A stretch of DNA of 57,578 nt from an uncultured Clostridium sp. Lineage in GTDB: Bacteria > Bacillota > Clostridia > Lachnospirales > Lachnospiraceae. A program made the position numbers and the translations under genes. Positions 16,231 through 20,879 of the stretch are shown one piece after another; position 1 is the stretch's first letter, and each line of letters starts with the position of its first letter. The stretch lies in assembly GCA_947644195.1 (NCBI GenBank), contig CANRZB010000017.1:1-57578 (forward strand), in the 5' to 3' direction. The notes beneath the pieces were generated by a model that had not been told where the DNA came from, searched no databases, and saw only the letters and a program-made list of their open reading frames with translations.

Positions 16231-17475
16231 ATGTATTCATTTGAAGAAGTAGAGCGTTTTGACCCGGAAGTAGCAGCAGCGATGGCGGATGAGACCAATC
16301 GCCAGAGAGATAATATTGAGCTGATTGCTTCAGAAAACTTAGTGAGTAAAGCTGTGATGGCTGCGATGGGGAGTACCCTGACGAATAAATATGCAGAGGG
16401 ATACCCTGGAAAGAGATATTACGGCGGTTGTGAATATGTGGATGTTGTGGAGGATTTGGCGAGAGACCGTGCCATGGAACTGTTTCAGTGTACCTATGCA
16501 AATGTACAGCCTCATTCCGGTGCGCAGGCAAATATGACAGTATTCTTCGCTCTGATGGAGCCGGGAGATACCTACATGGGAATGAACCTTGACCACGGCG
16601 GACATCTGACCCATGGAAGTCCGGTAAATATGTCTGGTAAATATTTTCATTGTGTTCCTTATGGCGTCAATGATGATGGTTTTATTGATTATGATGAGGT
16701 AGAGCGCATTGCTAAGGAGTGCAAACCAAAGGTGATTATTGCCGGAGCGAGCGCCTATGCACGTAAAATAGATTTTAAGCGGTTCCGTGAGATTGCGGAT
16801 GCCGTAGGTGCCTATTTGATGGTAGATATGGCTCATATTGCCGGTCTGGTAGCTGCGGGTGTGCATGAGAGTCCAATTCCTTATGCCCATGTAACGACAA
16901 CGACGACGCACAAAACCCTTCGTGGGCCTCGTGGCGGTATGATTCTGTCCAGTGAAGAATTTGCCAAAGAGATCAATTTTAATAAGGCATTGTTCCCTGG
17001 AATCCAGGGAGGTCCATTGATGCATGTGATCGCGTCCAAGGCAGTGTGCTTCAAGGAGGCGTTGGATCCAAGTTTCCGGGAATATGGACAGAATATTATT
17101 AAAAACGCACAGAGCCTGTGCAAAGGACTGCAAAACCGGGGAATCAAAATTGTCTCTGGAGGCACTGACAATCATCTGATGTTGGTTGATCTGGCAGATA
17201 AGGGATTGACGGGTAAAGAGGTAGAGAAATGGCTGGATGCAGCACATATTACTTGCAATAAGAATACCATACCAAATGATCCGCAGTCGCCGTTTGTAAC
17301 CAGCGGAATCCGTCTGGGAACCGCCGCAGTGACCAGCCGTGGATTCCAGGAGGCAGATCTGGATCAGGTAGCGGAAGCGATTGCGATGATTATTGAGGAT
17401 CCGGAAGGAAATCAAAAGAAAGCAGCGGAGATTGTGAAAGGATTAACAGATCGCTATCCTTTGTATGAAGCATAG
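16231..17475 (+). CDS. glyA: Serine hydroxymethyltransferase
   Basis: GlyA interconverts serine and glycine with transfer of a methylene group to tetrahydrofolate, using pyridoxal phosphate. The 414-residue protein shows the lysine that binds the cofactor in [15 protein letters not shown] (Lys228), the N-terminal [20 protein letters not shown], and [21 protein letters not shown], all hallmark SHMT segments. It starts 23 nt after purD behind a GAGG site. Its products, glycine and methylene-THF, feed PurD and PurN directly, so the four genes form a compact purine and one-carbon unit. Confidence 0.97.
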
Positions 17476-17544: not shown

Positions 17545-17573
17545 TAGTACAGCCAATGGGAATTACTGTACTA
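17545..17573 (+). promoter_or_regulatory. Perfect inverted repeat before the zinc-finger gene
   Basis: TAGTACAG (17545-17552) and CTGTACTA (17566-17573) form a perfect 8-bp inverted repeat, 24 bp upstream of the next start codon. It could be an operator or an mRNA hairpin next to the ribosome binding site. No clear -35/-10 pair was assigned. Confidence 0.4.
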
Positions 17574-17597: not shown

Positions 17598-18506
17598 ATG
17601 AGCAACCCTTTTGACAAAGAGTCTTTATCACAACGGGAAAAAGATATCCTGGAGGATGGAGGCTGGCAGTGTTCCTTTTGCGCAACGGTTAATGCAAGCT
17701 ACATAACGACTTGTTCCTGTAGCCATAACCGGGATGACAGTTACGAAAATCTCCATGGACGTTATGTTCCACGGGAGGATGAGGAATGGTCGGAAGCTGG
17801 AATTACAGTAGAAGGTCCGGCAGAAACGATACAGACCCCGACGCCGGCGGTCCAATCGGAACCTCCATTCCAGCCGGCTGCAAGCGAATCGGTCTTGGAA
17901 AAGGCGACAGTGGAACCAACCGTTGCGATGGCCTCCGTGCCGGAGCCGACTGCAATGCCGGATACTCCGCAGCCGAAACCGACCGTTTCCAATACAGACC
18001 GGCCGATCGAAGAATATACGGAGTATGAACAGGGTATCCTAAAGGATGGAGGCTGGGAATGTGCTTTTTGTTCCCGGATCAATGCCAACTATATTACAAC
18101 CTGTGCCTGCGGACATAGTACGGATGATAGTTATCTGAAAAGACGTGGAAGATATGTGGATCCGAATGGGGAGGAACCAGAAACAGAGGAGGATTTGTCT
18201 TCTGCTCAGCCATCTGCAACTGCCGTTTCTCCTGCTCCACCAGCAGAGAAATCAGGAGCTGAGAGAATTGCAGAGATCGAACAGGAATTACAGAAAAATG
18301 ATACTCCAACGGCTAGGCTTCGGGCAATCCGTAAGTTTAAGGATTTGAACAAAAAAGGATTTATGTCTGCCGAGGAATTGAATCGGAGAATGGATGAACT
18401 GATGGGATTTGATGAGGATGAGGAGCCATCAGAGCATCCGGCGGAAGATACGACAGCAGCTACAGCAGATCACAGCACACAGGAAGAAGAGTTGGAGTTA
18501 TTGTAA
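17598..18506 (+). CDS. Unknown protein with two RanBP2-like zinc fingers
   Basis: No named family was recognised for this 302-residue, acidic, probably cytoplasmic protein. Two copies of a module of about 47 residues occur at about 12-58 and 142-188. Each has the order Trp-x-Cys-x2-Cys-x3-Asn-x6-Cys-x-Cys (W23, C25, C28, N32, C39, C41; W153, C155, C158, N162, C169, C171) and ends in a DDSY...GRYV tail. That is the RanBP2 zinc-finger pattern except for a shorter last Cys pair. A Pro/Thr/Glu-rich linker joins them. Residues 221-270 are helical and end DLNKKGFMSAEELNRRMDEL, much like a SHOCT domain. A role in RNA, DNA or protein binding is a guess. The two modules clearly arose by duplication. 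Confidence 0.75.
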   Translation: MSNPFDKESLSQREKDILEDGGWQCSFCATVNASYITTCSCSHNRDDSYENLHGRYVPREDEEWSEAGITVEGPAETIQTPTPAVQSEPPFQPAASESVLEKATVEPTVAMASVPEPTAMPDTPQPKPTVSNTDRPIEEYTEYEQGILKDGGWECAFCSRINANYITTCACGHSTDDSYLKRRGRYVDPNGEEPETEEDLSSAQPSATAVSPAPPAEKSGAERIAEIEQELQKNDTPTARLRAIRKFKDLNKKGFMSAEELNRRMDELMGFDEDEEPSEHPAEDTTAATADHSTQEEELELL

Positions 18507-18548: not shown

Positions 18549-18689
18549 ATGTATTTGGAAGTCAATGTAAGCAAAATAGTAAAATATGTTTGTCTGGCAG
18601 GTGTTTCGATTGTCGCTGTGATTTTTGGCGAAAAGGCATTGCGGGAATATATGCGGATGAAACAGCGGGAGGACTGTAAAAACAATTAA
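18549..18689 (+). CDS. Small single-pass membrane protein, 46 residues
   Basis: A short frame starts at ATG 18549, 10 nt after a GGAG ribosome binding site, and ends 3 nt before the topB start. The product begins MYLEVNVSKIVKYVCLAGVS, has one hydrophobic helix at about 12-28, and ends in a basic/acidic tail (KALREYMRMKQREDCKNN). The tight fit between the zinc-finger gene and topB and the good membrane helix support it as real. The function is unknown. It could work with the upstream zinc-finger protein. Confidence 0.5.
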   Translation: MYLEVNVSKIVKYVCLAGVSIVAVIFGEKALREYMRMKQREDCKNN

Positions 18690-18692
18690 TTT

Positions 18693-20879
18693 ATGAGCAA
18701 GAAATTATTTATCGCTGAAAAACCAAGTGTGGCAAAGGAATTTGCCAAAACACTTGGGGTTTCTGGCAACGCAGGACAGGGTTATTTGGAATCCGGCGAC
18801 TATATTGTAACCTGGTGTGTGGGGCATTTGGTTACGATGAGTTATCCGGATGTCTATGACGAGACACTGAAGAAATGGTCTCTTCAGACCCTGCCTTTTT
18901 TGCCGGAAAAATTTCTATATGAATTAATTCCCGATGTCCGGAAACAGTTTCAGATTGTGTCCGGGCTGCTGAACCGTGAGGATGTGCAGACCATCTATGT
19001 CTGTACGGACTCGGGGCGGGAGGGGGAATATATCTACCGTCTGGTGGATCAGATGGCCGCTGTACCGGACACCAAGGAGAAACGCCGTGTGTGGATTGAT
19101 TCGCAGACCGAAGAGGAAATCCGGCGTGGAATCCTGGAGGCAAAACCTCTGTCGGAATATGATAATCTGTCTTCTTCCGCCTATCTCCGGGCAAAAGAAG
19201 ATTATCTCATGGGAATTAATTTCTCCCGTGTTCTGACTCTGAAATACGGGCGTACCGTGATGAATTATCTGAATAACGGAAAATGGTCTGCGATCTCGGT
19301 AGGACGCGTGATGACCTGTGTTCTGGGGATGGTGGTGCGCCGGGAGCGGGAGATCCGGGAGTTTGTAAAAACACCATTTTATCGGATTCTAGGTTCCTTT
19401 GCCTACCAGGGACAGACGTTTGAGGGAGAATGGCGCAGCGTTTCTGGCTCCCGTTACTTTGAATCCCGGCTGCTTTATAAAGAAAATGGGTTTCGAAACC
19501 GACCCGATGCAGAGGAATTATGCGGAGATCTTACCTATGAACCGATGACTGCTGTCGTACATAAAGTAGAAAAAAAGAAGGAAAAGAAAAATCCCCCTCT
19601 ACTCTTTAATCTGGCAGAACTACAGAATATTTGTTCTAAGCTCTTTAAAATTAGTCCCGATGAAACCTTGAAAATCGTCCAGGAACTGTATGAGAAAAAA
19701 CTGGTCACTTATCCCCGTACCGACGCCCGGGTTCTTTCTACAGCTGTAGCAAAAGAGATTCATAAGAATATTGCCGGGTTGCGAAATTATCCTTTGCTGC
19801 AAACCTATGCCAAGACAATTTTGCAGGAGGGAAAACAGAAGGGGATTGCCAAGACGCGGTATGTCAATGATAAACAGATTACCGATCATTATGCGATTAT
19901 TCCAACCGGACAGGGGTTGGGAGCTCTGCAAAGTCTTAGCCTGACAGCAGCCCGTGTCTATGAAGTGATTGCCAGACGATTCCTCTGTATTTTCTACCCA
20001 CCGGCAGAATACCAGAAGTTCCAGGTTGTTGCCTGTCGTACTTTGCCGGAGAAGAAGATAATGCAGACGACAGAGAAAACAAAGGAACAAGTGGGGGAAC
20101 TGAGAGCGGAATCTACGGGAGCCGTTGGGGGGGAATCTTCTCTCTCAGGAACGGAACAACAATCGGTAGAAGCCAGAGAGATGCAAAAGATCCTGCCGGA
20201 AAGCAAGGAATCTTTTTTTGCCGGATTTAAGATACTCATAAACCAGGGCTATCTGGAATTGGCTACGGCATCCTTTGCGCGCAAAAAGGCGGGAAAGCAA
20301 GAGAATGAAGATGCCAGGAATGAGGACGTACAGGAGAGCTTTGATCAGGATCTCATACAGAGTATCAGCCGGTTGAAAAAAGGGGCTACCATTGACCTGC
20401 AAAAGTTGGAGATCAAAGAGGGAGAGACTTCGCCGCCGAAACGTTATAATTCCGGTTCCATGATACTGGCAATGGAAAATGCGGGCCAGTTGATTGAGGA
20501 TGAAGACCTGCGATCTCAGATTAAGGGCAGCGGAATTGGAACCAGTGCAACCAGGGCGGAAATCTTAAGCAAACTCGTCAAGATCAAGTATCTGAAGCTG
20601 AACAAGAAAACGCAGGTGATCACTCCAGAGTTATTGGGGGAAATGGTCTATGATGTGGTCAATGGATCCATCCGTTCCCTGCTCAATCCTGAATTGACAG
20701 CAAGCTGGGAATTAGGTTTGACGCAGGTGGCAGACGGAACGATTACGGAAGACGAGTATATGGAAAAGCTGTCGGGATTTATTTCTAGACGGGTGGATTA
20801 TGTCAAACAGACCTCCTATGAAACGACGTTTCGCCAGTGCTTTGATGCCGCTGCACCGTATTATAAGAATGCCAAATGA
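18693..20879 (+). CDS. topB: DNA topoisomerase III (type IA)
   Basis: TopB is a type IA enzyme that passes single strands and resolves replication or recombination intermediates. The 728-residue protein has an N-terminal TOPRIM domain (FIAEKPSVAKEFAK; TDSGREGEYIYR at 105-116) and the catalytic tyrosine in VTYPRTDARVLS (Tyr340). The TOPRIM acidic motif reads Asp-Ser-Gly-Arg-Glu instead of the classic Asp-x-Asp-x-Glu, a variant seen in some TopB/TraE-type enzymes. A low-complexity Glu/Ser/Thr-rich insert of about 45 residues lies near 455-500. No C-terminal zinc fingers were seen. The ribosome binding site is weak, so translation may be coupled to the small gene before it. Confidence 0.93.
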   Translation: MSKKLFIAEKPSVAKEFAKTLGVSGNAGQGYLESGDYIVTWCVGHLVTMSYPDVYDETLKKWSLQTLPFLPEKFLYELIPDVRKQFQIVSGLLNREDVQTIYVCTDSGREGEYIYRLVDQMAAVPDTKEKRRVWIDSQTEEEIRRGILEAKPLSEYDNLSSSAYLRAKEDYLMGINFSRVLTLKYGRTVMNYLNNGKWSAISVGRVMTCVLGMVVRREREIREFVKTPFYRILGSFAYQGQTFEGEWRSVSGSRYFESRLLYKENGFRNRPDAEELCGDLTYEPMTAVVHKVEKKKEKKNPPLLFNLAELQNICSKLFKISPDETLKIVQELYEKKLVTYPRTDARVLSTAVAKEIHKNIAGLRNYPLLQTYAKTILQEGKQKGIAKTRYVNDKQITDHYAIIPTGQGLGALQSLSLTAARVYEVIARRFLCIFYPPAEYQKFQVVACRTLPEKKIMQTTEKTKEQVGELRAESTGAVGGESSLSGTEQQSVEAREMQKILPESKESFFAGFKILINQGYLELATASFARKKAGKQENEDARNEDVQESFDQDLIQSISRLKKGATIDLQKLEIKEGETSPPKRYNSGSMILAMENAGQLIEDEDLRSQIKGSGIGTSATRAEILSKLVKIKYLKLNKKTQVITPELLGEMVYDVVNGSIRSLLNPELTASWELGLTQVADGTITEDEYMEKLSGFISRRVDYVKQTSYETTFRQCFDAAAPYYKNAK

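Follow-up and report, generated by a model that had tools for sequence, protein, structure and literature searches.

Zinc fingers of the RanBP2 type (PF00641) have been given a consensus whose first part reads W-x-C-x(2,4)-C-x3-N-x6-C (accessible sections of PMC7154859); those treated in the accessible sections of PMC7641849 are eukaryotic, in the portion available of PMC4506424 the family figures merely as a co-occurring domain, and in PMC1949818 the term turns up among the references alone. SHOCT domains (PF09851) have been combined with zinc ribbons in print, including eight proteins that join the ribbon PF12773 to SHOCT (PMC3581485; see also PMC11237479). As far as the accessible text of these two papers goes, SHOCT-like domains are predicted to tether other domains at the inner leaflet and to build up complexes associated with the membrane (PMC11237479), and SHOCT gave a negative result when tested directly for a role in oligomerisation (PMC3581485). 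Here we describe a gene at positions 17598 to 18506 of a stretch of 57,578 nucleotides (hereafter the window; contig CANRZB010000017.1, assembly GCA_947644195.1) from an uncultured Clostridium sp. of the Lachnospiraceae, the product of which carries two finger modules followed by a SHOCT-type tail. The finger is, by its predicted fold, RanBP2-like, with a C-x-C second knuckle and in a bacterium, and no Pfam model that we scanned scores above its cut-off on it. Among the papers listed for queries of the open-access literature, none has such a bacterial finger as its subject, to go by the listings, the broadest query being too unspecific to tell much. The features of the gene are as follows (aa, amino acids; pLDDT, predicted local distance difference test).

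17598..18506, + strand: whole gene with ATG start, encoding an acidic protein of 302 aa with two finger modules and a helical tail
17619..17780, + strand: module 1 (aa 8-61), a finger with conserved flanks, from orthologue identity and comparison of repeat units
17664..17720, + strand: finger motif 1 (aa 23-41), exact match to W-x-C-x2-C-x3-N-x6-C-x-C
17787..18005, + strand: acidic linker (aa 64-136), fast evolving and predicted to be disordered (47% orthologue identity with indels; pLDDT nearly all below 50)
18009..18161, + strand: module 2 (aa 138-188), predicted helix-finger-helix, from orthologue identity and an AlphaFold2 model
18054..18110, + strand: finger motif 2 (aa 153-171), exact match to the same motif
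18240..18413, + strand: SHOCT-type helical tail (aa 215-272) with predicted helices 220-233, 237-252 and 258-272, from the PF09851 score of an orthologue, a co-linear alignment and a model
18414..18503, + strand: acidic C-terminal tail (aa 273-302), net charge -12, from sequence composition

The duplication of the motif, recognized in a preliminary description of the locus, was confirmed; of 200,000 shuffles of the protein, none contained even one copy. All eight cysteines of the protein belong to the two motifs. A profile built from 13 relatives, with the window modules left out, recovered both copies in a six-frame search of the window (53.8 and 62.3 bits) and scored the 302-residue protein at E 5e-34, every other frame of the window lying at E 0.8 or above. 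Comparison of six modules from three genomes placed each motif inside a repeat of about 54 residues, the invariant letters of which extend from a glutamate six positions before DGGW across the finger and as far as G-x-Y. The protein is strongly acidic (pI 4.35, net charge -35, with -3 for each finger region) and has no hydrophobic segment. The linker had been described as acidic and about 80 residues long; it is indeed acidic (net charge -7, no cysteine), and the stated length fits if whole modules are taken as its bounds (73 residues), but not from the end of motif 1 to the start of motif 2 (111 residues).

The resemblance to RanBP2-type fingers, also proposed at the outset, found support in structure prediction. 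An AlphaFold2 model of a 60-residue stretch containing module 2 (aa 133-192; pLDDT 91.2) consists of a helix (residues 10-17 of the stretch), the finger and a second helix (43-50). Among its best 11 Foldseek matches in the PDB, 10 were RanBP2 or Nup153 fingers, whose titles name a complex with Ran, and the other was a chain of an RYBP complex; among the VIA PDB rows, 21 of 22 were of RanBP2/NZF type, four of them from RYBP complexes. Both modules fit the W-x-C-x2-C-x3-N-x6-C spacing of RanBP2 fingers. Unlike those fingers, however, they close with C-x-C, one residue shorter than C-x2-C, read G-G rather than G-D before the tryptophan (GGW versus GDW), are flanked by helices, occur in a bacterium and lack the RNA contacts that we checked (see below). 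Ubiquitin-binding NZF fingers carry a T-F pair after the second cysteine, and the window modules have A-T and S-R at that position. PF00641 found no match in the window protein at E 1, and only one of 15 modules matched it (E 0.022). Its single match in the genome of the window, at 23.4 bits, is a C-x2-C ribbon elsewhere and not the gene at 17598-18506. Relatives with a Dabb domain (below) reached at most 19.5 bits, under the cut-off of 27 bits. Seven relatives with a C-x2-C knuckle were scanned as well: PF00641 was listed for five of them at 18.4-26.0 bits (the best being 26.0 against 27) and for two not at all; no Pfam cut-off was passed by any of the seven, and ribbon models scored much as PF00641 did. 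The modules also share the C-x2-C-x10-C spacing of Zn_Ribbon_1 (PF13240), but ribbons end in C-x2-C and, by eye, 10 of 11 compared ribbon rows lack a tryptophan two positions before the first cysteine.

Comparison with the orthologue from a second genome of the genus (G010) revealed how unevenly the protein has been conserved. The module regions are 95% (aa 1-63) and 94% (aa 137-188) identical, as against 47% and 52% for the linkers, which also carry indels; aa 221-272 reach 56% and the C-terminal tail 43%. Correspondingly, nonsynonymous divergence (dN) is 0.027 for module 1 and 0.037 for module 2, against 0.34-0.64 in the rest of the protein; synonymous divergence (dS) is above 1 or not computable. 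Given these differences in identity, selection evidently holds the finger modules above all. The protein of a third genome (G011) likewise has two modules, and the second module of the window is nearer to the second module of G011 (33 of 54 residues) than to module 1 of its own protein (28 of 54), and hence, as judged from these sequences, the pair looks old. The G011 protein (L005/L159) enters a long Ala-Pro-Gln repeat and then leaves the end of its contig, so its tail lies beyond the contig.

The assignment of the tail to the SHOCT type rests on an orthologue. PF09851 found no match in the window protein at E 1, but it scored 28.6 bits (cut-off 27) in the tail of orthologue L004, with which the window tail aligns co-linearly. 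A full-length model, built from four alignment rows, is confident only in the tail, where the three helices have pLDDT of about 90; 235 of the 302 residues fall below 50. The SHOCT-like tail of the preliminary description is supported by way of the orthologue, the window protein itself giving no direct match. The arrangement resembles the published SHOCT proteins in placing a C-terminal SHOCT (scored in the orthologue) behind zinc modules, and differs from them in the kind of finger, in its two copies with a long linker between them, and in having three predicted helices where the paper has a pair.

Nor is the protein an isolated oddity: besides the SHOCT-ribbon proteins already in print, to go by the accessible sections of those papers, the finger is spread through the family, the class and viral contigs. 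Of the 28 genomes of the genus, nine contain a match with E no higher than 1e-4; three (G000, G010 and G011) hold the two-finger form and the other six hold membrane forms. Across the family, profile A1 matched 11 of 150 genomes and the wider profile A3 at least 52 of 397, with at least 29 of 391 in the class (E 0.001; these A3 counts include C-x2-C forms and come from scoring the best 17 candidates, or fewer, per genome). In the phylum, A1 matched 2 of 299 genomes, namely that of the window and one with a weak match containing an internal stop. In viral contigs, a DNA pattern for the finger picked out 71 stretches, 59 of which have their residues in an open frame and 31 of these 59 score below E 1e-5 with A1; a control pattern with the asparagine shifted by one codon gave 28 stretches, 9 in an open frame and none below E 1e-5. 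The contrast in A1 scores leans toward the real pattern because the profile was built from sequences with a correctly placed asparagine, but the contrast in open frames (59 versus 9) is free of this bias. Phage and plasmid records gave no whole-protein match.

Profile and protein searches yielded 67 distinct domains (seeds included), of which 66 keep the tryptophan and 65 the asparagine, residues that the profile itself favors. An aromatic residue is common three positions after the asparagine (Y in 31, F in 10). C-x-C forms the second knuckle in 49 domains; 14 have C-x2-C, and with it the complete RanBP2 spacing, and in four the knuckle is of another form or cut; three of the 49 (L018, L187 and L211) have a short C-x-C first knuckle as well. 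The two forms can be neighbors in one protein: L086, from a viral contig, has three consecutive fingers, one with C-x-C and two with C-x2-C. An open frame of 1439 aa (L196) contains four tandem fingers, all with W...N and C-x2-C.

The C-x-C finger occurs in 37 distinct proteins chosen by pattern, the window protein among them; of these, 28 have a hydrophobic segment (a crude call), 11 a SHOCT-like tail (by a pattern that missed the tails of the window protein and its orthologue) and eight at least two fingers. One set of ten (L006, L008, L009, L011, L015, L017, L025, L178, L185 and L200), belonging to this family or a related one, combines a membrane segment, one finger and a SHOCT-like tail; it shares the finger and the kind of tail with the window protein, which differs in its two fingers and in lacking a hydrophobic segment. 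A second protein in the genome of the window (C27:24764) pairs a hydrophobic segment with a single finger-like end in which H replaces N. In three others (L027, L028 and L044) a Dabb domain at the N-terminus (27.9, 42.4 and 50.1 bits; cut-off 25) is followed by long stretches of low complexity and by two or three fingers; the same kind of finger thus sits on long linkers, but with a Dabb domain in front and no SHOCT match. A gene that looks dUTPase-like by eye lies upstream of all three Dabb multi-finger proteins (L164, L165 and L166), adjacent or one gene removed.

What might such a protein do? The reading that we tentatively favor, at not quite an even chance, is that it is a soluble acidic zinc adaptor. 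Each module would be a small four-cysteine unit of RanBP2-like fold with a short helix on either side, its zinc binding being suggested by the cysteine pattern together with the modeled fold. The conserved surfaces of the modules would grip a protein partner, whether shared by both or one of two similar proteins, the disordered acidic linkers would let both grips reach sites at variable distance, and the SHOCT tail would dock the protein onto a further complex. This complex would probably lie close to the membrane on its inner side, since most of the relatives that we collected carry membrane segments of their own. A bivalent protein adaptor fits the strong conservation of the modules amid acidic linkers that drift, the docking type of tail and the membrane segments carried by most relatives.

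The main rival, which we consider unlikely, is that the two fingers read single-stranded RNA or DNA in the manner of ZRANB2, FUS and RBM5, the tail adding affinity. Two fingers on a flexible linker would suit such a role, the RNA-binding fingers of RBM5 (2lk0, row 1) and ZRANB2 (2k1p, row 17) are among the VIA matches, and L027 and L028 have Asn/Gly-rich, disordered-looking regions beside their fingers. The residues at issue argue otherwise. The ZRANB2 finger contacts RNA through D4, N14, W17, R19, R20 and N24, according to the accessible text of PMC6384913. Neither module has any of these six, and neither does any of the 15 rows of A1; in the 21 rows of A3, one row keeps one and another keeps two. 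The preliminary description had held that the conserved tryptophan and asparagine are exactly the ligand contacts, but mapped onto the letters of ZRANB2 finger 2 they fall on residues other than the six listed there. The missing contacts, together with the net charge of -35 for the protein and -3 for each finger region, disfavor nucleic acid as the ligand, even though mRNA is bound by Com of phage Mu, a small zinc protein (accessible part of PMC6483171).

The module could instead be an ordinary bacterial zinc ribbon of the PF13240/PF12773 kind, a generic accessory domain whose likeness to RanBP2 is resemblance only. hhalign gave A1 94.0% against eleven bacterial ribbons and 87.7% against four RanBP2-type rows, and A3 93.9% and 93.4%, with RanBP2 rows against ribbons at 92.8%; the comparison leans toward ribbons, as nine of the eleven come from the genome of the window and two from G214 (one itself an A1 match), and the four RanBP2-type rows include a consensus made in this analysis. 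The C-x2-C relatives, too, score alike on both kinds of model, all below cut-off. But the near-invariant tryptophan, seen by eye at that place in one of the 11 ribbon rows, the almost equally persistent asparagine and the structural matches of module 2 to RanBP2/NZF fingers make this quite improbable. Also of slim likelihood is a redox or zinc sensor in which the CxxC/CxC site would drop its zinc on oxidation or zinc loss and so alter the shape or partners of the protein. The zinc site of Hsp33, which pairs CxC with CxxC, is comparable in principle, most of the domains have the C-x-C knuckle, the host group is probably anaerobic and one set of relatives is fused to the Dabb "stress responsive" domain. 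Yet 14 domains have C-x2-C, so that the family can do without C-x-C, the four cysteines lie within a compact modeled fold, no redox gene was seen among the adjacent genes, and the Dabb label is a family name rather than a tested function. Finally, eight cysteines confined to two modules, with acidic tails, could hold zinc for transfer, as in a store or metallochaperone, but conservation extends far beyond the cysteines, to 52-63 residues per module, and we regard this as very improbable.

The preliminary description had suggested a search for relatives and their gene neighbors. The neighbors are housekeeping genes and tell little about function: glyA, for serine hydroxymethyltransferase (16231-17475), lies on one side of the finger gene and topB, for topoisomerase III (18693-20879), on the other. 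glyA is upstream in all three genomes that hold the two-finger gene (genes of G010 and G011 named by eye), and the order purM-purN-purD-glyA is common to the window and G011 (the latter by eye); at other topB loci of the genus the upstream gene was taken by eye for hydE in 15 of 19. Directly before topB (18549-18689, + strand) is a gene for a 46-residue protein with one hydrophobic segment and the pattern N-V-x-x-I-V-K-Y, which was found by pattern at 16 of the 21 topB loci in the genus, including loci with different genes farther upstream; L144, one of the five loci missed, shows a similar stretch. In the space that separates glyA from the finger gene, the window has a perfect inverted repeat of 8 nucleotides with 13 between (17545-17573), and the orthologue (L019) has one of 13 nucleotides with 14 between (935-974), of different sequence.

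A broader proposal, which we put forward as doubtful, is that Clostridia and viruses use a RanBP2-fold zinc domain that lacks a model, mostly with the short knuckle, as a general recognition module. At least two protein designs, finger-finger-SHOCT and Dabb-disordered region-fingers, would repeat the finger along disordered linkers, much as eukaryotes repeat RanBP2 fingers. If so, the eukaryotic RanBP2 fingers could share an origin with the bacterial and viral ones, or even derive from them, with the C-x2-C relatives as the bridge. A finger like the one studied in eukaryotes as a reader of Ran, ubiquitin or RNA turns up, with another knuckle and lacking the RNA contacts that we checked, in many Clostridia and in viral contigs. 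One soluble protein of 302 residues may offer a handle on two matters, the targets to which SHOCT attaches and the origin of RanBP2-type fingers.
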